Below, one piece after another: positions 50,010 to 62,139 of a stretch of 64,000 bases of DNA. The stretch lies in NCBI RefSeq assembly GCF_003955715.1, contig NZ_CP034463.1, positions 9,734,001-9,798,000 of the forward strand, written 5' to 3'. Each line of letters opens with the position of its first letter. Position 1 is the stretch's first letter. The notes beneath the pieces are model-generated. The model had not been told where the DNA came from. It saw only the letters and a list, made by a program, of their open reading frames with translations, and made no database searches. Both the position numbers and the translations under genes were made by a program. Source of the DNA: Streptomyces aquilus. GTDB lineage: Bacteria > Actinomycetota > Actinomycetes > Streptomycetales > Streptomycetaceae.

Positions 50010-51152
50010 TCAGGAGTTGGCGGCCTTGAGCAGGCCGAACAGCCGTGCCGGGTCCATCTCGTTGTCGCCGCGCAGGGCCTCGACGACATCGCGGAGCCGC
50101 TGCGGGGAGGGGCTCGCGCCGAGGAAGTCGCGGGTGGCCGGCGGGCCCCACTGGGCCAGGCCGCTGGTCGACATGGGCGCCCAGCCGGGCTCGACGTCGC
50201 AGGAGAACAGGTCGCCGTCGGAGAAGTGCTCCAGCATGAAGTGGTCGGGGTCGCGCCAGTAGTCGAAGAGCTGGCTGCCCTGGATGTGCCGGCCGATGCC
50301 CCAACTGCGCTTGTATCCCCGCTCCTTGAGGTACTCGCCACCGGCGGCGATCGAGTCCAGGTCGGTGACCTGGTAGGCGGAGTGGACGTATCCCGTGCCC
50401 GGCCCCAGGTGCATCGCGAGGGTGTGGTGGTCGGCAGGCACGCTGCCCAGGTCGCAGCGGATGAACGCCATCGTCGGGCCGCGGCCGCGCTGGCCGTCCA
50501 GGAACAGGAAGTCGGAGACGATCATGCCGAGGGTGTCCAGGTACCAGTCCAGGGCGCGCCCGAACACGCGGGTCTCCAGGACCAGATGGCCCAGACGCTG
50601 GATGCGGGACGGCTCGCGCGGCGGACGCTGCGTGGCGTTCGTACGACGGTGATCCGTGCCGAAGTTGAGGGGCAGCGGCCGCTGTTCCGGCAGGGCGGGG
50701 AGCTGCTCGCCGCAGTGCACGACCCGCACGGGGAAGCCGGAGGGGTCGAGCAGGTCGACGCCCTTGCCGCCCCCGGGAACGTCGGCGTCCCGCACGTCCC
50801 TGCCCGTCGCGCGGGCCAGCCGGTCCAGGTCGGCCCGCTCGGCGGCGCGGAACGCCGGACCGATGAAGCGGGACGTACGACCGCGCCGGATCACCATGCA
50901 GGGCGAGCCCGCGAAGGTGCCCCGCAGCCACAGCTCGCTCTCGGTGCGGGCGGCGACGCCGAAGCCGAAGTCGCGGGCGAAGACCTCCGCCCGGTCCAGG
51001 TCGGGCTTCTCGAACTCCAGCCAGGCCAGGTCCGCCACCTTGATCACGGGATTCCGGGAGCGGCCGGGGTGCTCGCCGCGCAGGGCGCCCTGCTCACTGT
51101 GGAGGTCCTGGTGGGCCGTGAGGACGTCCCCGTTGACGTGTGTTCCAGACAT
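50010..51152 (-). CDS. Type I extradiol dioxygenase (two-domain VOC)
   Basis: A 380-residue Fe(II)-dependent ring-cleaving enzyme made of two VOC modules. The C-terminal catalytic module carries the facial triad H189 (RLGHLVLET), H242 or H243 (DHHTLAMHL) and E308 (DPDHFMLEHFSDGD). The about 35-residue N-terminal lead is unusual. The open frame extends to 51263, but the ATG at 51152 has GGAGG upstream. It is the first gene of the operon and is read from the TetR-controlled promoter at 51187-51215. It would open a catechol next to the hydroxyls. Confidence 0.88.
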   Translation of the reverse strand: MSGTHVNGDVLTAHQDLHSEQGALRGEHPGRSRNPVIKVADLAWLEFEKPDLDRAEVFARDFGFGVAARTESELWLRGTFAGSPCMVIRRGRTSRFIGPAFRAAERADLDRLARATGRDVRDADVPGGGKGVDLLDPSGFPVRVVHCGEQLPALPEQRPLPLNFGTDHRRTNATQRPPREPSRIQRLGHLVLETRVFGRALDWYLDTLGMIVSDFLFLDGQRGRGPTMAFIRCDLGSVPADHHTLAMHLGPGTGYVHSAYQVTDLDSIAAGGEYLKERGYKRSWGIGRHIQGSQLFDYWRDPDHFMLEHFSDGDLFSCDVEPGWAPMSTSGLAQWGPPATRDFLGASPSPQRLRDVVEALRGDNEMDPARLFGLLKAANS

Positions 51153-51186
51153 GGTGTCCTCCGAGCAACATTGCCGTAATGAGGAA

Positions 51187-51215
51187 ATCATCAACTGTGA
51201 CAGTTCTGTCGTCAA
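51187..51215 (-). promoter_or_regulatory. TetR-controlled promoter of the aromatic operon
   Basis: On the reverse strand TTGACG (-35), a 17-bp spacer and GATGAT (-10). The palindrome AACTGTGACAGTT (51193-51205, perfect six-base arms) lies wholly inside the spacer, so repressor binding would exclude RNA polymerase. It faces a divergent tetR gene. Confidence 0.68.
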
Positions 51216-51286
51216 GGCGTTCACCGCAGGAAATGATGGATTCATCAGAACTGCGATCTTCATCGTGCAACCGTTAGGCTCTGCGC

Positions 51287-51922
51287 ATGTCTACGTCAGC
51301 CCCGCCCGGCAATCGGTTCGAGCGACGTCGCGCGGAGACCCGGGGGGCTCTCGTGCGAGCGGCCCGGCAGATCCTCGCCGAGAGCGGCGACACGAGCGCG
51401 AGCATCCAGGCGATCGCCGAGCGCGCGGACGTTGGCTTCGGCTCCTTCTACAACCACTTCGACTCCAAGGCGGAGTTGTTCGAGGCGGCGGTGATCGATG
51501 CCCTCGAGGAGTTCGCGCAGGAATTCGACGAGCGTCTGACGGGGGTCGACGACCCGGCGGAGCGGGTCGCGGGCGGCTTCCGGCTCAGTGCCCGCATGGC
51601 CGACTCCCACCCGGAGCTGATGCAGGTCCTGCGCCGCCGTGGCCTCGCGCACATCCACTCGGGCAAGGGGCTGGCCCGACGCGCCCTGCGTGATCTCCAG
51701 GTCGGCATCGCCTCCGGCCGCTTCACGCCCGTCGACCCGATGGTCGCCCTGTCCGCACTCGGCGGAACCCTGCTGTCCCTGGTGGAACTGCGGTTCGCCC
51801 GCCCTGAACTGGACGGCGACGAGGCCGCGGTCAACCTTGCCGAGATGGTCCTGCGGATGCTGGGCCTGCCCGCGGACGACGCCCACGAGGTGGCCCGACG
51901 CCCCTTGCCCGACGCCGCCTGA
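51287..51922 (+). CDS. TetR-family regulator of the aromatic operon
   Basis: A 211-residue TetR protein. The HTH includes LVRAARQILAESGDTSASIQ, then AERADVGFGSFYNHFDSKAE. The ligand domain is TetR_C-like with HPELMQVLRRRGLAHI. It is divergent from the five-gene degradation operon, and the palindrome in that promoter is its likely operator; the ring-cleavage substrate or product is the likely inducer. It ends three bases before the convergent LmeA-like gene, so the two messages overlap at their 3' ends. Confidence 0.87.
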   Translation: MSTSAPPGNRFERRRAETRGALVRAARQILAESGDTSASIQAIAERADVGFGSFYNHFDSKAELFEAAVIDALEEFAQEFDERLTGVDDPAERVAGGFRLSARMADSHPELMQVLRRRGLAHIHSGKGLARRALRDLQVGIASGRFTPVDPMVALSALGGTLLSLVELRFARPELDGDEAAVNLAEMVLRMLGLPADDAHEVARRPLPDAA

Positions 51923-51924
51923 CC

Positions 51925-52707
51925 TCACGCGGACGAGGAGTCCGGGTGGAACGTGACCGAGTGGCCCGTGAAGCGGGCGTCGATTCCGTCCTCGCTGGTG
52001 GTGACCGAGCGCAGCCGGAGCCCTTCGGGCACATTCCGCAGCGGTACGGGCTCGTCCAGGGCCCGGTCGAGCAGTGATTTCAGCGGCGGGAGCAGTTCAC
52101 CCTGCTCCGCGCGTACGTCCGTGAAGGCGATGCTGTTGCCGTCGGCCGCCGAGACGGCCGCGCTCACGGTCACGTCGCCGACGAGCGGCAGGCTCGCGGT
52201 CGCGTTGATCCGGCCGGACTCGTCCCCCTGTGACACCTGCACACCGAGCGCCCTCGACACGTCCGCGTACGACAGGAACGCGGTCGCTGTGACGCCGTCC
52301 GCGTGAGCCTCGTCGGCACTCCCCGACGTCTTCAGCCCGTCCATCCCGACCGTCAGCTTCGTCACCGGGAGCGGCCGGGTGCTGCCGTCGGCCGGGATCT
52401 CGTGGGCGGTCAGGTCGACATGGTCCAGGCTGCCCGCGGCCAGTTGGTTCAGTACGGGAAAGCCCCTGACGTGGACCGACGGCCGATCGGCGGTTCCCAT
52501 GCCGTCTTGGAAGGCTGTGGCCGTGCGGCTCGCCGCGTGAGCTGCGGCGAGCCGGTCGACCGCGACTGTGCCGACCAGCAGGGCCGCCAGGGACGCGGCG
52601 GCGATGATCATGCGCTGCCTGGTCCGGGTCGGAGGGCTCGCATACATGGAGTCGTCGCCGTAGTAGGGCTCGCCGACGTACTTCTCGTCGCGGGGGGACT
52701 GGTACAT
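51925..52707 (-). CDS. LmeA-like (DUF2993) envelope protein
   Basis: A 260-residue protein with a short cytosolic head, one membrane helix at about 34-56 (MIIAAASLAALLVGTVAVDR) and a large exported beta-rich domain (SVHVRGFPVLNQLAAGSLD, the DUF2993 signature). LmeA of mycobacteria takes part in lipomannan elongation. The frame opens at 52797, but the ATG at 52707 follows GAGGAG. It is 37 bp downstream of a tetR gene on the same strand and probably co-transcribed, so it is expected to be regulated with the divergent exporter. Confidence 0.82.
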   Translation of the reverse strand: MYQSPRDEKYVGEPYYGDDSMYASPPTRTRQRMIIAAASLAALLVGTVAVDRLAAAHAASRTATAFQDGMGTADRPSVHVRGFPVLNQLAAGSLDHVDLTAHEIPADGSTRPLPVTKLTVGMDGLKTSGSADEAHADGVTATAFLSYADVSRALGVQVSQGDESGRINATASLPLVGDVTVSAAVSAADGNSIAFTDVRAEQGELLPPLKSLLDRALDEPVPLRNVPEGLRLRSVTTSEDGIDARFTGHSVTFHPDSSSA

Positions 52708-52744: not shown

Positions 52745-53383
52745 CTACGCGGCGTCGCCCGCGGGGCGGACGAGTCCGTGGACGCACGCCGCGGCACTGT
52801 CCTCGGCCACGCCCGTCGCGGTCAGGGCGGCGGTCGCCGCGCCGGCGCCGTCGTCGCTCCAGACCCCGCTGTTCGCGCAGTCCAGAAGCCCCAGCAGGTA
52901 CCCCTCCAGCGCCCGGGCCTGGACGACCGGGGGTACGCCGGTCTGGAAGACGCCCTGTCGCTGCCCCCGGGAGATGATCGCCTCCGCCATGTCCCGCGCG
53001 GGAGCCAGGACTTCTGCCAGCCGATCGGCGCCGAGGTCCTGGGGGGCGAGTCTGAGCAGGATGCGGTAGCGATCTCCGACGGGCCACACCGCGAGGACGA
53101 AGCGCGCCAACTCCGGGACGGCATCCGCCACCGGCGCGCGCGGGACCGCGAGCGCCTGCCGCAAGGCCCATGCGGCGTCCTCCACCAGCCCCTCCACCAG
53201 TGCGGCCCGGCCGTGGAAGTGGCCATAGAGCGTACGGCGCACCACTCCAGCGGCCTCGGCGATGTCGCCGAGGCTGCTGTCGGGGTCACGGCTCAGTTCC
53301 TGCCGGGCCGCCTCCAGGATGCGGGCCCGTGTGAACAGGGTGCGGCTGCGTTCCGGGGCGGCTGTCAGGTGCGCGTGGATCAT
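52745..53383 (-). CDS. TetR-family regulator A
   Basis: A 212-residue TetR protein. The HTH reads RARILEAARQELSRDPDSSL and GVVRRTLYGHFHGRAAL. The whole protein aligns with the TetR at 58267-58893; the recognition helix GVVRRTL is identical and the C-terminal WPVGDxYRxLL segment is shared. The frame opens at 53488, but the ATG at 53383 follows GGAGG. It forms an operon with the LmeA-like gene and diverges from a DHA2 exporter. Two TTGCACAT-type direct repeats lie in the shared promoter. Confidence 0.87.
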   Translation of the reverse strand: MIHAHLTAAPERSRTLFTRARILEAARQELSRDPDSSLGDIAEAAGVVRRTLYGHFHGRAALVEGLVEDAAWALRQALAVPRAPVADAVPELARFVLAVWPVGDRYRILLRLAPQDLGADRLAEVLAPARDMAEAIISRGQRQGVFQTGVPPVVQARALEGYLLGLLDCANSGVWSDDGAGAATAALTATGVAEDSAAACVHGLVRPAGDAA

Positions 53384-53443
53384 GTCGAAACCTCCGGTAG
53401 GCGGGGGAGGGCGTCCGGCAGGAGGGGCAGGGCGACTCGATAG

Positions 53444-53494
53444 TTGCACATTGGCGAGCAATAAACTAGTCTGCACATCAGCGGGCAATTAACT
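53444..53494. promoter_or_regulatory. Tandem TetR operators before the exporter gene
   Basis: Two direct copies of a 23-bp element occur at 53445-53467 and 53472-53494 (19 of 23 identical, 27-bp period). Each holds a TGC-N10-GCAA dyad; the first is TTGCACATTGGCGAGCAA, a full TTGC-N10-GCAA. A third copy lies at 58177 before the kinase gene. Confidence 0.75.
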
Positions 53495-53592
53495 GCCCAT
53501 GGTGCCTGGCCCCTCGTGGCCCCGCGTGCACCGATCCCCTCGATTCCGCACCCCCGAAGCCTCCGCTTCACCTCCTGCCGAGGAGCCTGACC

Positions 53593-55206
53593 ATGCCGCT
53601 CTTTCCGAACACACCCGTCGAGAAGATGACGGAGCCCTACCACCGCCGCTGGTGGGCCCTGCTGGTCCTGTGCCTGAGCCTGCTGATCGTCGTCATGGCG
53701 AACACGTCACTGATCGTGGCCGCCCCCGACATGACCAAGGACCTGGGACTGTCCAGCAGCGACCTGCAGTGGGTCATCGACGGCTACACCGTCCCCTACG
53801 CCGCGCTGATGCTCGTGCTCGGCGCGATCGGCGACAAGTACAGCCGTCGCGGCGCCCTCGTCCTCGGCCTGCTGATCTTCGCCGGAGGGTCGGTGATGGG
53901 CGGCCTGGTCGATGAGACCAACCTCGTCATCACCGCCCGCGCGATCATGGGTGTCGGTGCCGCCGTCGTCATGCCGGCCACCCTGTCGCTGCTGGTCGCG
54001 ATGTTCCCGCGCGCCGAGCGCGCCAGGGCGATCACCGCCTGGTCCGCGACCTCCGGCCTCGCCATCGCGGTCGGTCCGCTGACCGCCGGCTGGCTGCTGG
54101 AGAACCACGCCTGGGGCTCCACCTTCCTGGTGAACGTCCCGATCGCCGTCCTCGGCGTCATCGGCGCGCTGTTGCTCGTGCCGCCGTCGAAGGCGGAGGG
54201 CATGGGCCGGATCGACTACGGCGGCGGTCTGCTGTCGATCGTGTCGGTCGGCTGCCTGGTCTACGCGGTCATCGAGGGCCCGCACTTCGGCTGGGGCACC
54301 GGTCCCATCACCGCGGCCGTCGTCGCCGGCGTGGGCCTGCTGGCCTTCGTGGCCTGGGAGTTGAAGCACCCGAACCCGATGCTGGACGTGCGCAAGTTCA
54401 CCGAGCGTCCCTTCGGCGGCTCGATGATGGCCGTGCTGTTCTTCTTCTTCGGCACCTTCGGCTCGATCTACTACTCCACCCAGTTCCTGCAGTTCGTCCT
54501 CGGCTACAACGCCCTGGAGACCGGCATCCGCCTGCTGCCGCTGGCCGGATCCGTGTTCGTCGGTGCCGCGGTCACCGGCAAGCTGGCTCCCAAGCTGGGC
54601 GTGAAGCTGGTGGTCGGGACCGGCATGGTGATCGGCACCGTGGGCGTCTTCCTGCTCACCCGGATCGACTCCGGCTCCACCTACACCGACTTCGTGGCCT
54701 CGCTGCTGCTGCTCGGCTTCGCCATCGGCCTGAGCCTTTCCCCCGCCACCGACACCATCATGGGCTCTTTCCCCGAGTCGGAGCTGGGCGTCGGCGGCGG
54801 CGCCAACGACACCGCCCTGGAACTCGGCGCCTCGCTGGGCATCGCCATCCTCGGCTCCCTGCTGGCCACGTCCTACAAGGACAAGCTGACCGACCTGGTC
54901 GGCGGCCACCTCCCCGCCGAGGCCCTGGACACCGCCAAGGACTCCGTCGGCGGCGGCATCGCGGTCGCCGAACACGTCGCCAAGAACCCCCAGGGCGGCG
55001 CCGAACAGGCCCAGACCCTGCTGGGAGCGGTGCACGAGTCCTTCGCCCACGCCATCGCCCACACCAGCCTCATCGGCGGCATCATCATGGCCGCCGGAAC
55101 CCTGATCGTCATCGCAGTCCTGCCCGGCCGCAAGCACACCACCCAGCACGGTGCGGAAGAAGGGACGCCGGCGACCGAGGAGCAGACCGAGACCGTGGGC
55201 GCCTGA
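53593..55206 (+). CDS. MFS drug exporter, DHA2 (14-helix) type
   Basis: A 537-residue proton-coupled antiporter with fourteen predicted helices. QWVIDGYTVPYAALMLVLGA (motif D), GDKYSRRGALVLG (motif A) and the fifth-helix antiporter motif GLAIAVGPLTAGWLL are clear. This class exports quaternary ammonium compounds, dyes and antibiotics. It is divergent from tetR A with two tandem operator copies upstream, and two successive terminator hairpins follow it. A role in self-protection or efflux of an exogenous toxin is inferred. Confidence 0.9.
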   Translation: MPLFPNTPVEKMTEPYHRRWWALLVLCLSLLIVVMANTSLIVAAPDMTKDLGLSSSDLQWVIDGYTVPYAALMLVLGAIGDKYSRRGALVLGLLIFAGGSVMGGLVDETNLVITARAIMGVGAAVVMPATLSLLVAMFPRAERARAITAWSATSGLAIAVGPLTAGWLLENHAWGSTFLVNVPIAVLGVIGALLLVPPSKAEGMGRIDYGGGLLSIVSVGCLVYAVIEGPHFGWGTGPITAAVVAGVGLLAFVAWELKHPNPMLDVRKFTERPFGGSMMAVLFFFFGTFGSIYYSTQFLQFVLGYNALETGIRLLPLAGSVFVGAAVTGKLAPKLGVKLVVGTGMVIGTVGVFLLTRIDSGSTYTDFVASLLLLGFAIGLSLSPATDTIMGSFPESELGVGGGANDTALELGASLGIAILGSLLATSYKDKLTDLVGGHLPAEALDTAKDSVGGGIAVAEHVAKNPQGGAEQAQTLLGAVHESFAHAIAHTSLIGGIIMAAGTLIVIAVLPGRKHTTQHGAEEGTPATEEQTETVGA

Positions 55207-55218
55207 GCCCCGTACACC

Positions 55219-55245
55219 GGAGGCCGGAACCTGATTCCGGCCTCC
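55219..55245 (+). terminator. Hairpin after the exporter gene
   Basis: GGAGGCCGGAA (55219-55229) pairs perfectly with TTCCGGCCTCC (55235-55245) over a 5-base loop, starting 13 bases after the stop. No U-tract follows. Confidence 0.7.
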
Positions 55246-55287
55246 TCCACCCCCATGACGGGCTGTGCCTGAGCGGCGCACAGCCCC

Positions 55288-55331
55288 GGGACGGTGCCGG
55301 GAGGGGAAACCCGGCACCGTCCCACTTTTTT
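55288..55331 (+). terminator. Rho-independent terminator after the exporter gene
   Basis: A perfect 14-bp stem, GGGACGGTGCCGGG (55288-55301) with CCCGGCACCGTCCC (55310-55323), has an 8-base loop and is followed by six T (55326-55331). This is the strongest intrinsic terminator in the window. Confidence 0.92.
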
Positions 55332-55395
55332 GTCGCGCTGACGGCTTGAAAACAAAAGGGGTGCGGTCGCTGAACTGGGGTGATAGGCAAGCGAC

Positions 55396-56157
55396 GTGAC
55401 AGAGAGTCTTGAGTATTCCGCCCTGCTGCGACTGATCGACGAGCGGTCGGCCGCGTTCCGGAGTGCGGTTGCCGCCGCGCCCGGCCTTGACGCGCCGGTG
55501 CCGTCCTGCCCCGAGTGGACGGTGTTCGATCTGGTGCGGCACCTGGGTACGGGCCAGCGCTGGTGGGCCGCGATCGTCGCCGCGGGCCCGGCCGAGGCGC
55601 CGCCCGCCAAGGACGCCGCCCAGGCGCCGCGCGAGATCGAGGCGCTGCTGGCCTGGTACACGGAGTCGAACGAAATGCTGCTGAGCGCGCTGCGGGAGGC
55701 GGGCCCGGAGCGCGAGTGCTGGACGTGGTGGAGCGCGGGCGTGTCGCCGGCGAATGCCTGGGGCGTTGCCCGGCGCCGGGTGCACGAGCTGCTGGTGCAC
55801 ACCTACGACGCCCAGCTCGCCGCCGGCACCGTGCAGCCGATGCCGGTGGACGTCGCGATCGACGGCGTGGCCGAGTTCCTCGACACCTGCAACTCCACCC
55901 CGGCGGCGTGGCCGCACGCGCCCGCCACCATCCAGTACCACGCCACCGAGGGCCGCTCCTGGCTCCTCGTGCTGGACGGGACCGGAGCCTGGCCCGCACC
56001 TCTCACGGTCGACGCCGCGCCCCCCTCCGCTTCGGCCACGGGCACGGCCGAGCAACTGCTCCTCTTCGTCTGGGGCCGCCTCACGCTGAACGACCTGAAG
56101 ACCGAGGGCGACCAGCAGGTGTTCGAGCAGCTCATCGCCTGGGAGCCCGAGGAGTAG
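55396..56157 (+). CDS. Mycothiol-dependent maleylpyruvate isomerase-family protein
   Basis: A 253-residue DinB-like four-helix protein with the MDMPI N-terminal domain (SCPEWTVFDLVRHLG) and its C-terminal extension. Metal ligands fit the H...ExxxH pattern: H49, E131 and H135 (RRVHELLVHTYDA). Family members use mycothiol, the actinobacterial thiol, in isomerase or transferase reactions; the true substrate of most is unknown. Maleylpyruvate arises from gentisate, not from extradiol cleavage, so no direct link to the nearby aromatic operon is claimed. The GTG start at 55396 has a weak ribosome site. Confidence 0.82.
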   Translation: MTESLEYSALLRLIDERSAAFRSAVAAAPGLDAPVPSCPEWTVFDLVRHLGTGQRWWAAIVAAGPAEAPPAKDAAQAPREIEALLAWYTESNEMLLSALREAGPERECWTWWSAGVSPANAWGVARRRVHELLVHTYDAQLAAGTVQPMPVDVAIDGVAEFLDTCNSTPAAWPHAPATIQYHATEGRSWLLVLDGTGAWPAPLTVDAAPPSASATGTAEQLLLFVWGRLTLNDLKTEGDQQVFEQLIAWEPEE

Positions 56158-56166
56158 GCAGGCCGA

Positions 56167-56206
56167 CACCGCCGGCGGACGGCCTCGATGGCGTCCGCCG
56201 GCGGTG
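56167..56206. terminator. Shared terminator hairpin between convergent genes
   Basis: CACCGCCGGCGGAC (56167-56180) pairs perfectly with GTCCGCCGGCGGTG (56193-56206). It lies between the isomerase stop (56157) and the kinase stop (56216), so it can serve both strands. Confidence 0.75.
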
Positions 56207-56215
56207 AACGGCGTC

Positions 56216-58165
56216 TCACTGGTCGTCGGTCGTCGCTCCCGGCGTCGTCGACGTCCCGTCGTCCGGTGTCCCGTCGTCCGACGACGTGTCCTGGGGCTCC
56301 TCGGTGACGACGACCACCGTGCTGCCCGCCTCGACCTCGCTCCCGGCCGCCGGGGTGCTGGAGGTGACCACGGCGTCGGAGGCCTGGGAGTACCCGGAGG
56401 CGACGGTCGCCTGGAGGCCGAGGTCGCCCAGCTCGTTCCGGACCTCGGCGAGGGTCTTGCCGATGATGTCCGCCGGGATCTGCACGGTCTGCACCGACTT
56501 GGCGATCTGGACGTCGACCGACGAACCGGGCTTGACCTCATCTCCCGCGGCGGCGCTCTGTTCGACGACGGTCCCGGCCGCGGCGCTGCTCTCCACCTCG
56601 GTGGTGTCGCCCAGTTCGAGGTCCTGCTCGGCGAGCAGCCTGCGGGCCTCGCTCAGGGTGCTGCCGGTGAGGTCGGGAACCGTGGCCTTCTCGGCTTCCT
56701 TGGCCACCGTGAGGGTGATCTCGGTCCCCTTCTCGACACTCTCGCCGCCGGAAGGATCCTGCTCCAGTACGGTCCCGGCGTCCTCGGTGGACACCTTGTG
56801 CCGGACCTTCACCTTGAAGCCCTTGTCCTCCAGGATGCGGGACGCGTCGTCCTCGTCCTTGTCCGTGACGTCCGGCACCTCCACCTTCGGCGCACCGGTG
56901 GAGAGGGTGACCGACACCGCCTCTCCCTTGTCGAGCCGGCCGTCCAGCGGGGACTGCGTGCAGATGTGCCCCTTGGGCTGGTCCGCGCAGGGCTCCTTCT
57001 TGGTGACGGTGAGCGTGAGGTCGACGTTGTCCGCCGTGTGCCGGGCCTCCTCCAGGGTCTGGCCGACGAGATCGGGTACGTCCGTCTTGCCGTCGTCGGC
57101 CGCACCGCGCCCGAACAGGAACCAGCCGAGCACGAGTGCCGCGACGACGACCGCGACACTCGTCCCGATCAGCGCAGCGCTGCCTCTGCGGCGACCGCTC
57201 TCCGCCGCCTCATCGCCGTCCGCCCCATCGCCGTCCGCCCCATCGCCGTCCGGCCCCTCGTCGACGCCGTCGAACGTCCGGTCCAGGACGGTCTGCGCCC
57301 CGAGGTACGCCTCGACGTCGGCGAGCATCTCCTGCGCGGACTGGTAGCGGTACGCGGGATCCTTCGCCAGCGCCCGCAGGACGATCGCGTCGGCCTGCGG
57401 ACCGACCTCGGGGTTGTAGAGGCTCGGCGGCCGTGGTTCCTCTTGAACGTGCTGGTACATCACCGCCATCGGCGAATCACCGGTGAACGGCGTCCGGAGC
57501 GTGAGGAGTTCGTAGAGCAGGCACCCCACCGAGTAAAGGTCGGAGCGGGCGTCTATGGCGTGTCCCATCGCCTGCTCGGGGGAGAGGTACTGGGCGGTGC
57601 CGATCACCATGGAGGTCTGGGTCATGGCGACGTCCCGTGCGTCACGGGCGATGCCGAAGTCCATCACCTTGACCTGACCGGACCAGGCCACCATGACGTT
57701 GGCGGGCTTGATGTCCCGGTGCACGATGCCCTGCTGGTGGGAATGGGTGAGCGCCTCCAGGACACTCGCCGTCACCTCCATGGCGCGTTCGACGGTCAGC
57801 GGTGGCCCGGAGGACAGGGCCTCGCGCAGAGTGGTGCCGTCGACGTACTCCATCACGAGGTACGGCAGCTGCCACCCGTACGAGAAGTGCTCGCCCGTGT
57901 CGTAGACCGCGGCGATGGCCGGGTGGTTGAGCGAGGCGGTGGACATGGCCTCCCGCCGGAATCGCTCCTGGAGTGCCGGATCGTGCGCGAGGTCGGTGCG
58001 CGGAGTCTTCACCGCGACGCTGCGGTCGAGCCGGAGATCGTGCGCGAGGTGCACCTCGGCCATGCCTCCGGAGCCGAGCAGTAGCCGCAGTTCGTACCTG
58101 TCGCCGAGGACCGCCACCGGCGCAGGCTGGGAGAAGGCCAGATCGTCTGGGCCACCGAAGTTCAT
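56216..58165 (-). CDS. PASTA-domain Ser/Thr protein kinase (PknB-like)
   Basis: A 649-residue membrane kinase. The N-terminal Hanks domain (about 24-290) has the P-loop GSGGMAEV, Lys K53 (VAVK), the catalytic loop HRDIKPAN (149-156) and DFG (169-171). A linker with a short DGDGADG repeat leads to one membrane helix (about 328-353). Outside lie four PASTA repeats (about 360-625) with PDLVGQTLEEAR-like starts, which bind muropeptides in this family. Unlike division-cluster PknB genes, it stands alone with a TetR-type operator 12 bases before its ATG. Start 58165 has no Shine-Dalgarno sequence. Confidence 0.92.
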   Translation of the reverse strand: MNFGGPDDLAFSQPAPVAVLGDRYELRLLLGSGGMAEVHLAHDLRLDRSVAVKTPRTDLAHDPALQERFRREAMSTASLNHPAIAAVYDTGEHFSYGWQLPYLVMEYVDGTTLREALSSGPPLTVERAMEVTASVLEALTHSHQQGIVHRDIKPANVMVAWSGQVKVMDFGIARDARDVAMTQTSMVIGTAQYLSPEQAMGHAIDARSDLYSVGCLLYELLTLRTPFTGDSPMAVMYQHVQEEPRPPSLYNPEVGPQADAIVLRALAKDPAYRYQSAQEMLADVEAYLGAQTVLDRTFDGVDEGPDGDGADGDGADGDEAAESGRRRGSAALIGTSVAVVVAALVLGWFLFGRGAADDGKTDVPDLVGQTLEEARHTADNVDLTLTVTKKEPCADQPKGHICTQSPLDGRLDKGEAVSVTLSTGAPKVEVPDVTDKDEDDASRILEDKGFKVKVRHKVSTEDAGTVLEQDPSGGESVEKGTEITLTVAKEAEKATVPDLTGSTLSEARRLLAEQDLELGDTTEVESSAAAGTVVEQSAAAGDEVKPGSSVDVQIAKSVQTVQIPADIIGKTLAEVRNELGDLGLQATVASGYSQASDAVVTSSTPAAGSEVEAGSTVVVVTEEPQDTSSDDGTPDDGTSTTPGATTDDQ

Positions 58166-58176
58166 ACGGAAGATAA

Positions 58177-58194
58177 TTGCACATCTGAGGGCAA
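58177..58194. promoter_or_regulatory. TetR operator copy directly before the kinase gene
   Basis: TTGCACATCTGAGGGCAA has the same TTGC-N10-GCAA dyad and TTGCACAT core as the repeats at 53444-53494. It occupies -12 to -29 relative to the kinase start, in the expected core promoter. Confidence 0.72.
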
Positions 58195-58221
58195 CTAAAG
58201 AAGTGGGGGCGGACACGCAAA

Positions 58222-58246
58222 GACCCCGGCGCTTCGCACCGGGGTC
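58222..58246 (-). terminator. Hairpin terminating tetR B
   Basis: GACCCCGG (58222-58229) pairs with CCGGGGTC (58239-58246). It follows the tetR B stop on the reverse strand and precedes the kinase promoter, separating the two same-strand genes. Confidence 0.6.
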
Positions 58247-58266
58247 ACGTCGTACCGCGGGGGAGC

Positions 58267-58893
58267 TCACCCCTCGGTGGCGGCCACCTCGTCCACGACG
58301 ATCCGCGCCCGCTTCTCCGGCACACCCGCCGCGATGAGCGTGCTGACGGCCGCGCGGGTGCCGTCGTCCTCCAGCGTCCCGGTGTTGACCTCCTCCAGGA
58401 GGGCGACCGTCATCGCCTCAAGACCGGCGCTCAGCACCGGGGCGGGCAGGTGGGTGTGGAAGACGCCGTCCCGTTGTCCCTGTTCCAGGATGGCCGTGGA
58501 CCTGACCCGGGCGGGCTCCAGGATCCCGGCGACACGGTCCATGCCGAGATCCCGTCGGGCCAGCGCCAGGAGCATCCGGTACTGGTCCCCCACGGGCCAG
58601 AGCGCCAACGTGAAGTGGGCGAGCGCCCGGTCGGCCGGTTCCGTCACCCCCGCGCCGACCGAGACGGCGGCCTGGAGAGTCTCGGCGGCCTCCTCGGCCA
58701 GCGCGTCCAGGAGCGCTGCCCGGCCGGGGAAGTGCCCGAACAGCGTCCGCCGTACGACACCGGAGGCGCGGGCGAGTTCCTCCAGAGTGATGTCGGGATT
58801 CCGCCCGAGCTCCTGGCGGGCGGTGGCGAGGATGCGCGCCCGGTTGGAACGGGCGTTGCGTCGCTGGGGCACACGGCCTGCGGGCTGGGACAC
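58267..58893 (-). CDS. TetR-family regulator B, paralogue of regulator A
   Basis: A 208-residue TetR protein. HTH segments are RARILATARQELGRNPDITL and GVVRRTLFGHFPGRAALLDA. It resembles regulator A at 52745-53383 along its length, with an identical recognition helix core. The frame opens at 58971 and an ATG lies at 58938, but only the GTG at 58893 has a placed GAGG, and it gives a length like its paralogue's. It lies just upstream of the kinase gene on the same strand, which carries the shared operator. I see no copy of the operator before this gene itself. Confidence 0.83.
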   Translation of the reverse strand: MSQPAGRVPQRRNARSNRARILATARQELGRNPDITLEELARASGVVRRTLFGHFPGRAALLDALAEEAAETLQAAVSVGAGVTEPADRALAHFTLALWPVGDQYRMLLALARRDLGMDRVAGILEPARVRSTAILEQGQRDGVFHTHLPAPVLSAGLEAMTVALLEEVNTGTLEDDGTRAAVSTLIAAGVPEKRARIVVDEVAATEG

Positions 58894-59163: not shown

Positions 59164-62139
59164 GTGGCGTCGGACGCGGTGGTTGGGGACGCCGGGGACA
59201 GAGCCCCGTTGCTGAGCCGGTCCGCTGAACTGGCCCGGTTCGACGAACTGCTCGACCGTGCCGCCCGCCACGCCCGTGACACGGCGAAGGGCGAGGAAAG
59301 CCGCGGCACGGGCCGGTCCCAGGTCGTCGACATCACGGGTGCGGCAGGCATCGGCAAGAGCAGGCTGCTCGGCGAGGTCTGCGCGCGGGCGCGCCGACGC
59401 GGACTGACCGTACTGCGCGGCAGAGCCACCGAGTACGAGCAGCAGGTGCCGTTCCAGGTCTTCACCGACGCGCTCGCCGACCTCGACCCGCACGCCCTGG
59501 ACGGCTTCCAGGAGACCGATGCCGTATTACCCCTGCTCCAGCCGAGCGCCGCCCAACACAGCGACGCGGCCGACCGATTCGGGCTGCACCGTGCCACGGC
59601 GGCCCTGCTCGCGCGGCTCGCCGCCCCGTCCGGGTTGCTGCTGGCCCTCGATGACCTGCACTGGGCGGACTCCGCGTCTTCGGAACTGCTGGATCACCTC
59701 GTACGCCATGCCGTGCACGCCCCTGTCGTCCTGGCCGTGACGCGCCGGGACCGCCAGAGCCCCGAGTCGCTCGCGGCCAGGCTCACCCGGGGCGTCGACG
59801 ACGGCACGGTCGTCAGACTCGGACTGGGGCCGCTGAGCGCACGCGACTGCGCCGAACTGGCCGGCCCCGGCATGCCGGCCGCCGACACCGCCGCACTGCA
59901 TGCCGCGAGCGAGGGCAACCCGCTGTACTTCCTGACCCTTCTGCAAGCTCGCCGCGGGGGTACGACGCCCGAGTCCTCGTCGCCACCGGAGCTCGGGGCG
60001 CTGCTGCTGGAGGAACTCACCGCGCTCACCCCCTCCCAGCGCGGCCTCGTCGAGGCCGTCGCGGTACTGGGCGAGCACGCCACCCCGGCGATGCTGGGCC
60101 GGGTGACCGGCCGCTCCGGCACCGCCTTCACCGACGACGTCCACGCCCTCACCCGCCGCGATCTGCTGCGCTCCGACCCGCAGGGCCTGCTGACCCTGCG
60201 GCATCCGGTCGTCCGCACGCTCGTCCACGAGAGCACGCCCTTCCTGAGACGCGTCGACATCCACCGGCTCGCCGCCCAGGAGCTGGCTCTCGCCGGTGCC
60301 TCCGCCGCCGAGCGGGCCCACCATGTCGAGCGGTCGCTGACCGCCTGGGACCCGGCGGCGGTGGCCGTGCTGGAGGAGGCCGCCGCACGGACGGCCCGCA
60401 CGGCCCCGGCGAGTTGCGCCCACTGGCTCGACGTGGCACTCCGCCATCTTCCGCACACGGGCGAACATGCCTCCCGGCGACGCGAGTTGACGCTGCGGCG
60501 GGCCCGTGCCCTGGCCGCGTGCGGAGGGCTTCGCGAGAGCCGTGACCTGCTCCAGGAGCTCATATCCACGCCTTCCCGGTCGTCCGGTGGCCGCCCCACC
60601 GGTGAGGACCAGGACCTCAGAGTGCGCGCGGTCGTCCTGTGCGCGCTGGTCGAGCGTCACCTGGGGCGCAGCGCCGAGGCCGTCGCGCTGTTGCGCCGCG
60701 AGCTGGCCCGCGGCCCCGCACCGGCCGACGTCGTCCGGCTCGGCCTGGAACTCGGCTCGGCAGCACCCCAGGGCAGCGGCATCTCGTACCCCCAGGTCCG
60801 ACCCGAGGTCGAGGCGGCCCTCGCGGCGGCCCGGGCGATGGGGAACGAGCCCGGTGAGGCGGGCGTCCTCGCGGTCGCCGCCCTCGGGGAGGCGTACGAG
60901 GGCAACATGGCCGCGGCTCACGAACTGGCCCAGCAGGCCGCCGCCTTGGTCGACTCGCTGCCCGACAACGACCTCACCGCCCTGTGCGAACCGCTCGCCA
61001 GGCTCGGCTGGGCAGAAGCCTTCCTGGAGCACTACCCGGACGCGGAACGGCACGCCGAGCGCGGCCTCGACATCGCCCGCCGCAGCGGCCAGCTCTACGT
61101 CATGCCTCATCTACTGCTCTGCCTGTCCCACGTCCGGGTGCAGACCTGCCGCGTCTCCTCGGCGGTGGAACTCGCCGACCAGGCGGAGGACATCGCCCGC
61201 GGCATCGGCAGCGACCAACTGCTCACGTTCGCGCTGGCGAGCAAGGCCTCGGCGCTCGTCGCCGCCTGCCCGCCCGGTGATCCTCGCCCCCTCGCCGTCG
61301 CCGAGGAGGCGGTGGCCGCGGCCGGTACCGGGGTGAACTGGTGGGCCTCCACCGCCTGGTGCATGTGCGGCTGGGCGGCACTCATGGCCGGCGATCCGGT
61401 CCGGGCCAGAGACGCGATGCTCCAGGCGGGCGGCCCCGAACTGCACCGGATCCAGCCCTCGATGCGGCCGCTGTACCTGGAGATCCTGGTGACGTCCGCA
61501 CTGGCGACGGGGCGCCTTGAGGAGGCCCGTGAGTGGGCCGAACAGGCCCGTAAGGAGGCGGAGCAGCTGGGGCTGCCGATGCAGCGGGCCTCCGCGCTGC
61601 GCAGCAACGCGCATCTGCCGCTGGCGCAGGGGGACACGGCAGCGGCGGCGGACTTGTTCGCCCAGGCCGCGGCGGAGAGCGCCCGCTGCGGGGCGGTCTT
61701 CTGGGAGGCCTTCTCGCTGCTGCTCGGCGCCCCGCTGGAAGCGGCGGCGGGCCGCGGCCGTGACGGCACGTTCGCCTGGCTGCGGGGCCGACGGCTCGCC
61801 GAGGCGGGCGGCAGCGGCATGCTGGTGGGCCTCGCCGACGCCACCCGTCCGCCCGACGGCGGATCCGAGGCGGCGTACGGCTCCCCGGACCGCGCCGAAC
61901 TCGCCGAACGGCTGGCGACCCTGACCGCACGGGAGCTGGAGATAGCCGAGCTGGTGGCCGAGGGCCTCACCAGCCAGGCCATCGCCGACCGGCTCTACGT
62001 CAGCCGGCGCACCGTCGACACACATGTCTCCCGGGCCTTCCGCAAGACCGGGGTCTCCTCCCGCACCGCCCTGGCCACGTTGATGGCCCGTCGCCGCACC
62101 GGGAACCGCTTCGTGGACGCCAGGCCGGATCCGGGCTGA
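59164..62139 (+). CDS. Large ATP-binding LuxR regulator (LAL family)
   Basis: A 991-residue regulator. The N-terminal AAA-type ATPase has Walker A GAAGIGKS (59-66) and Walker B LLALDDLHWAD (158-168). A long helical TPR-like middle follows, and a LuxR HTH is at about 919-980 (TARELEIAELVAEGLTSQAI, then VSRRTVDTHVSRAF). LAL proteins are often pathway-specific activators in Streptomyces, or respond to sugars. The GTG at 59164 follows a G-rich stretch. No biosynthetic cluster is adjacent in the window. Its last codons form one arm of a terminator hairpin. Confidence 0.9.
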   Translation: MASDAVVGDAGDRAPLLSRSAELARFDELLDRAARHARDTAKGEESRGTGRSQVVDITGAAGIGKSRLLGEVCARARRRGLTVLRGRATEYEQQVPFQVFTDALADLDPHALDGFQETDAVLPLLQPSAAQHSDAADRFGLHRATAALLARLAAPSGLLLALDDLHWADSASSELLDHLVRHAVHAPVVLAVTRRDRQSPESLAARLTRGVDDGTVVRLGLGPLSARDCAELAGPGMPAADTAALHAASEGNPLYFLTLLQARRGGTTPESSSPPELGALLLEELTALTPSQRGLVEAVAVLGEHATPAMLGRVTGRSGTAFTDDVHALTRRDLLRSDPQGLLTLRHPVVRTLVHESTPFLRRVDIHRLAAQELALAGASAAERAHHVERSLTAWDPAAVAVLEEAAARTARTAPASCAHWLDVALRHLPHTGEHASRRRELTLRRARALAACGGLRESRDLLQELISTPSRSSGGRPTGEDQDLRVRAVVLCALVERHLGRSAEAVALLRRELARGPAPADVVRLGLELGSAAPQGSGISYPQVRPEVEAALAAARAMGNEPGEAGVLAVAALGEAYEGNMAAAHELAQQAAALVDSLPDNDLTALCEPLARLGWAEAFLEHYPDAERHAERGLDIARRSGQLYVMPHLLLCLSHVRVQTCRVSSAVELADQAEDIARGIGSDQLLTFALASKASALVAACPPGDPRPLAVAEEAVAAAGTGVNWWASTAWCMCGWAALMAGDPVRARDAMLQAGGPELHRIQPSMRPLYLEILVTSALATGRLEEAREWAEQARKEAEQLGLPMQRASALRSNAHLPLAQGDTAAAADLFAQAAAESARCGAVFWEAFSLLLGAPLEAAAGRGRDGTFAWLRGRRLAEAGGSGMLVGLADATRPPDGGSEAAYGSPDRAELAERLATLTARELEIAELVAEGLTSQAIADRLYVSRRTVDTHVSRAFRKTGVSSRTALATLMARRRTGNRFVDARPDPG

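Follow-up and report, generated by a model that had tools for sequence, protein, structure and literature searches.

A 64,000-nt stretch of the Streptomyces aquilus chromosome (contig NZ_CP034463.1, positions 9,734,001 to 9,798,000; hereafter the window, with positions counted from its first letter) appears to carry a dedicated local regulon. In it, two paralogous TetR-family regulators, A and B, would act on one operator and place a DHA2-type exporter, an LmeA-like gene and a PASTA Ser/Thr kinase under joint control. We consider this reading likely as a whole, and the existence of a common operator for these genes is strongly supported by the conservation of its sites. In our reading, a duplicate of the kinase gene pknB was captured here by a local TetR-exporter regulon. 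The window lies at 9.73-9.80 Mb of a single-contig, 10.39-Mb genome and holds, from left to right, the LmeA-like gene, regulator A, a divergent gap, the exporter, an isomerase-like gene, the kinase, regulator B and a LuxR-type regulator. The genes, the sites, their conservation and the paralogy are read directly from the sequence, and the features that bear on the main finding are these:

51925-52707, minus strand: LmeA-like gene (Pfam LmeA, 87 bits), 37 bp behind regulator A
52745-53383, minus strand: regulator A, TetR family (Pfam TetR_N), divergent from the exporter
53444-53461, plus strand: operator 1, TTGCACATTGGCGAGCAA, exact motif, in the gap between A and the exporter
53471-53488, plus strand: operator 2, CTGCACATCAGCGGGCAA, one mismatch, 27 bp from operator 1
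53593-55206, plus strand: DHA2-type exporter of the major facilitator superfamily (Pfam MFS_1)
56216-58165, minus strand: PASTA Ser/Thr kinase (Pfam Pkinase and four PASTA domains)
58177-58194, plus strand: kinase operator, TTGCACATCTGAGGGCAA, exact motif, 11 bp before the kinase ATG
58267-58893, minus strand: regulator B, TetR family (Pfam TetR_N), upstream of the kinase in the same orientation

The operators have the form TTGCACAT-N6-GCAA, and the 209-bp divergent gap between A and the exporter houses two of these inverted repeats. A preliminary description of this DNA had placed the site twice before the exporter and once before the kinase; all three were found, with the correction that the second exporter site starts with CTGC. 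Scanning the window with the pattern YTGCACATN6GCAAYTAA at up to three mismatches gave three matches where 0.09 were expected, a number reached by none of 100 shuffles. A genome-wide motif scan, proposed earlier as a check, found exactly two exact copies of TTGCACATN6GCAA in the 10.39-Mb genome, both inside the window, and zero exact matches to a reversed control pattern. Across the genus the exact motif was present in 68 of 295 genomes and the reversed control in 13 of 295. Three one-mismatch sites occur elsewhere in the S. aquilus genome, and we adopted none of them: the best-looking, at 1.33 Mb, is inside the C-terminal helix-turn-helix (HTH)-coding end of a LuxR-type gene, the second is just past a gene's end, with >600 bp left to the next predicted gene, and the third is inside a predicted gene. 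With exact copies confined to the window and the other one-mismatch sites unconvincing, the regulon looks local, comprising three promoters. A wider regulon was also sought with a looser symmetric pattern, which was uninformative (95 matches in this genome vs 79 for the reversed control). No operator was found at two mismatches in the fetched stretches around the other B-like genes of this genome, L044 at 7.77 Mb and L045 at 9.72 Mb; the regulator at 7.77 Mb (L044:6972-7520) is 182 aa long and 57% identical to B, with no exporter in its fetched stretch either.

To place these sites in the genus, loci were collected by a motif-blind search with regulator B, which was found in 60 of 295 genomes at 65 places, so that a B orthologue with an exporter is not rare; the surroundings of all these places, 64 loci with the window included, were read. 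Thirteen loci had first been chosen for the exact motif, and all of them are also in the motif-blind list. Exporter matches of <55% identity or <900 nt were left out, as were kinase and isomerase matches of <60% and matches of <50% to two further neighbours described below (TetR_C_40 and VOC); exporter fragments in L188 and L225 are thus uncounted, and contig ends cut some loci, e.g. L191, L193, L195 and L223. An intact exporter orthologue lies nearby in 48 of the 64 loci, and two or three operators precede the exporter in 48/48. Successive operators (n=52) are spaced by 27 bp in 37 cases, 37-38 bp in nine (L200, L205, L211 and L234 are among the loci concerned), 25 bp in four, and 28 bp and 29 bp in one each, a distribution with a helical-phase resultant of 0.93. 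Since 37-38 bp is one helical turn over 27 bp, the relative helix face is kept. Position 13, left free by the search pattern, is a G in 100/100 exporter sites; together with C6, this invariant G13 gives the operator consensus TTGCnC-N6-GnGCAA. In 13 genomes B stands without an intact exporter next to it; nine of them carry an exporter elsewhere, eight of these with at least two operators. All 29 loci holding both regulator A and the exporter have the two in divergent orientation, and 22 of the 31 loci with A have the LmeA-like gene next to it.

The same operator is a constant companion of the kinase. Orthologues of the kinase, taken at ~72% identity or above from at least eight named contigs and six of 392 genus genomes (the same six are in the 295-genome set), comprise at least 13 distinct sequences, those of L068 and G014 being identical. 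Among the matches listed, to which all counts of kinase orthologues in this text refer, the operator occurs upstream (within 230 nt, at up to two mismatches) in 13 of 13, vs none of 72 paralogous PASTA kinases (~50% identity) within 400 nt upstream; the background for the pattern is 0.002 per 400 nt. This supports the earlier proposal that exporter, LmeA-like gene and kinase form one small regulon. G13 is kept in all 13 kinase sites, and the idea that these are weaker than the exporter sites was dropped, as mean mismatches are 0.85 and 0.89, respectively. B itself is carried by all six kinase genomes of the 295, vs 60/295 overall, and by 8/8 named kinase genomes. Genome G275 has, next to the exporter, a shortened regulator A followed by a decayed kinase relic of this branch (L293:6449-7080), in two pieces in different frames that are 51-56% identical to the window kinase, the larger piece matching the housekeeping PknB at 29%; the association may thus once have been wider.

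One could regard the kinase operator as a leftover, if the kinase had landed in the exporter's former slot behind B and kept a site without regulation that matters. B is indeed upstream of the exporter on the same strand in 28/48 loci, and likewise directly upstream of the kinase in 9 of 13, so that the kinase could have replaced an exporter. We nevertheless think this very unlikely, because the site is kept in 13/13 orthologues while kinase identity falls to ~72% and the distance from site to start ranges over 11-90 nt. The site is also kept at three loci with B separated from the kinase (~10 kb away in G159, ~37 kb away within one contig in L066, and on another contig in L070), as well as at L067, which has only part of B at the kinase and a full B elsewhere. 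Moreover, a relic would decay, yet the kinase sites match the motif as well as the exporter sites do, with G13 invariant.

The arrangement around the kinase operator suggests that it overlaps a promoter, and two elements can be placed there:

58170-58175, minus strand: TATCTT, a -10-like element read by eye, directly after the kinase operator
58222-58246, minus strand: G+C-rich hairpin between B and the kinase operator, terminator-like, with no long T run

TATCTT occupies this position in 11 of 13 kinase orthologues (not in L066 or G236). In six loci, which make up the window's branch, the kinase ATG follows the operator by 11-12 nt, suggesting that the kinase mRNA is leaderless in this branch, with a predicted start at or near the ATG; the other seven loci have a GTG start codon 41-90 nt downstream of the operator. 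Upstream regions were folded for 12 of the 13 loci (L067 left out), and a G+C-rich hairpin separating the operator from the stop codon of B was present in 6/6 window-branch loci and not seen in the other six. Given this hairpin, the kinase in the window's branch probably forms a transcription unit by itself. The TTGCAC and TATC-like hexamers that overlap or adjoin the sites, including TATCTT after 11/13 kinase sites, might be taken to mean that these genes share the motif chiefly as a promoter signature and not as an operator. This seems extremely improbable to us: the two halves of the site are both conserved, forming an inverted repeat in which each site counted has C6 and G13, the exporter sites are paired at fixed helical phase, and the remainder of the 10.4-Mb genome has no exact copy of the motif.

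We next consider which regulator reads the operator. A and B score 33.3 and 30.1 bits against TetR_N (gathering score 24) and are 51% identical over 180 aa, with 31/47 identities in the HTH stretch and 63/143 in the remainder. The preliminary description held that they share the core of the recognition helix, and the residues RRT are indeed common to both. In a tree of 30 A sequences and 34 of the 65 B sequences, A and B formed two clades with 100/100 support, indicating that their split is old. Regulator A is absent from 19 loci in which B accompanies the exporter and operators, and a search with A at E<=1e-38 matched nothing but B in 18 of these 19 genomes; conversely, G104, G252 and G220 have A with the exporter and operators and B elsewhere. 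Each paralogue is thus tied to the operator without the other, and the persistence of operators in 18 genomes where B is the sole detected member of the pair makes it probable that the site of A is read by B too. Neither regulator reached the cut-off of a named NCBIfam model, and a search of solved structures matched A (TtgR) and B (2rek) in the HTH region or N-terminus only, which does not inform on the ligand. Two loci stand beside this picture: in G222 (L185:11828-12100) regulator A is in two pieces, with B, kinase, exporter and operators still there, and L106 (Streptomyces sp. MMG1533), one of the paralogous-kinase control loci, has a 43-47% relative of A/B within that stretch yet no operator before its kinase.

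Alternatively, the operators could be used by one paralogue only, the other having a different site and its proximity being historical. The ligand domains and part of the HTH do differ between A and B, the three genomes with A at the exporter and B elsewhere fit this reading, and 14 of the 16 B loci without an intact exporter (of 64) have no site at two mismatches, so B can occur without this operator nearby. We judge such a division unlikely, given the shared RRT core and the 18 genomes with exporter, operators and B in which no other member of the pair was detected, a count in which the E cut-off could miss a diverged A.

Joint control of the exporter, LmeA-like gene and kinase by A and B has several further observations against it, besides the 14 B loci without a site. 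Another exporter-less B locus, L232, has one stray match >8 kb from B, and L290, one of the nine exporters away from B, has no operator. A diverged A can escape detection, as in G067, where a local A at 49% identity is absent from the genome list. The kinase branch is rare (6/392 genus genomes), and its 13 operators are not 13 independent events, because the orthologues are related to one another. At up to two mismatches the motif is not enriched in its own genome (104 matches vs 158 for the reversed control); weak matches alone are thus meaningless, and the argument rests on place and conservation. Finally, a consensus scan found no sigma-70 promoter at the exporter or kinase region and a strict terminator scan reported none at the B/kinase region, so that the promoter and terminator readings given above are by eye.

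The kinase itself is a paralogue of the housekeeping PknB and not its orthologue. PASTA kinases are usually regarded as housekeeping sensors beside division genes. The window kinase scores 643.3 bits against NCBIfam PknB_PASTA_kin (cut-off 450), and in a tree with 20 of the 72 paralogues and the genome's own PknB its branch stood apart from PknB with 100/100 support. The housekeeping PknB of the same genome (L283:5948-7933) is 53% identical to the window kinase and holds the usual place, in a cluster with FHA proteins, a PP2C phosphatase, and FtsW-like and penicillin-binding protein (PBP)-like genes, the last two named by reading translations.

Binding by both regulators is what we infer from these data, and family knowledge suggests how repression, ligand release and the kinase might follow from it. 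A and B, as old sister repressors, would bind the same 18-bp operator through the better-conserved DNA-binding part; their ligand domains are more diverged. Given two operators 27 bp apart in the divergent promoter region, A would repress itself, the LmeA-like gene (which is probably co-transcribed with A) and the exporter, and with one operator predicted to overlap the kinase promoter, A and B would also shut the kinase. Binding of a toxic compound to A or B would then open all three transcription units at once. The compound would probably be one that the pump carries, and the output would be its export plus an extra dose of wall-directed phosphorylation, through which the additional PknB may adjust wall synthesis. 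No operator lies in front of B in the window, so B would brake expression constantly and answer to a ligand range of its own, with A setting the feedback; two sensors with one DNA specificity might thereby respond to a broader range of compounds. A bolder version, which we find doubtful, is a wall-damage defence loop in which drug-sensing repressors switch on both the pump and a second, private PknB, by which peptidoglycan synthesis is re-tuned. The kinase would then perhaps phosphorylate the repressors or the pump, so that TetR ligand sensing and PASTA wall-damage sensing form one circuit; if this were true, the exporter substrate would be a wall-active compound.

Under the local regulon that we favor, a PASTA-kinase paralogue controlled by drug-pump repressors would let chemical detection set the dose of wall-kinase signalling. 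With two repressors, three promoters and one operator that has no other exact copy in the genome, the system is small and testable. The locus is, in addition, a natural setting in which to compare repressor paralogues whose DNA specificity is seemingly shared and whose ligand domains are more diverged.

Two other genes complete the locus:

55396-56157, plus strand: mycothiol-dependent maleylpyruvate isomerase-like gene, a neighbour of the kinase
59164-62139, plus strand: large LuxR-type regulator with an AAA_16 domain, divergent from regulator B

The isomerase-like gene adjoins the kinase in L050 too, and likewise in L071, a contig of S. antibioticus DSM 40234, which has the complete locus; a relative of the LuxR-type regulator was seen in two of 64 other loci (L189 and L196). 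Adjoining the LmeA-like gene, at 50010-51922, are a VOC-domain-like gene (the VOC label is our own) and a divergent TetR regulator (TetR_C_40), each found in 12 of 65 module loci, window counted, with identity of up to 96-97%. Outside the window, symmetric sites such as TTGCACATGGTTGTGCAA occur three times at L063:8009-8071, with a related exporter (61%) and a 44% regulator; this symmetric form recurs in the genus survey of the exact motif and hints at a broader sister family of TetR-DHA2 pairs.

Each part of the locus resembles a known system and departs from it. The exporter's best NCBIfam models are LfrA, SmvA, EmrB and QacA/B, DHA2 exporters that it resembles across most of the model length, and it scores below the cut-off in all 25 shown of 50 matched models; against TIGR00711, the curated DHA2 model, it reaches 225.1 for a cut-off of 230.2. 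The LmeA-like gene has the Pfam LmeA domain in common with mycobacterial LmeA, a mannan chain length protein, and falls far under the NCBIfam LmeA cut-off (22.3 bits vs 325). The preliminary description had linked this gene to the regulon; it does lie behind A, just outside the range of 52745-58893 given there. The window kinase shares a kinase domain and four PASTA domains with the PknB/StkP type, but instead lies outside the cluster of FHA, PP2C, FtsW-like and PBP-like genes and has a TetR-type operator. The heptamer TTGCACA also appears in a paper on ScbR (PMC4595836), where, in the excerpt available, it is part of a longer, different site. A TetR-family repressor divergent from an efflux gene is a known kind of arrangement in Streptomyces, to judge from an excerpt of Ahn et al. 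(2012; PMC3511530), and A is likewise divergent from a membrane pump, across a gap with inverted-repeat operators. From the TetR/TetA type as presented in that excerpt, the window differs by its two paralogous repressors, probably with one operator type, and by the PASTA kinase as an additional target. The claim that the arrangement is undescribed stands insofar as no paper was found in the open-access literature in which a TetR repressor of an exporter controls the gene of a PASTA kinase. As far as that literature shows, what is new here is the pairing of paralogues with phased operators and the recruitment of a PknB paralogue to their regulon.

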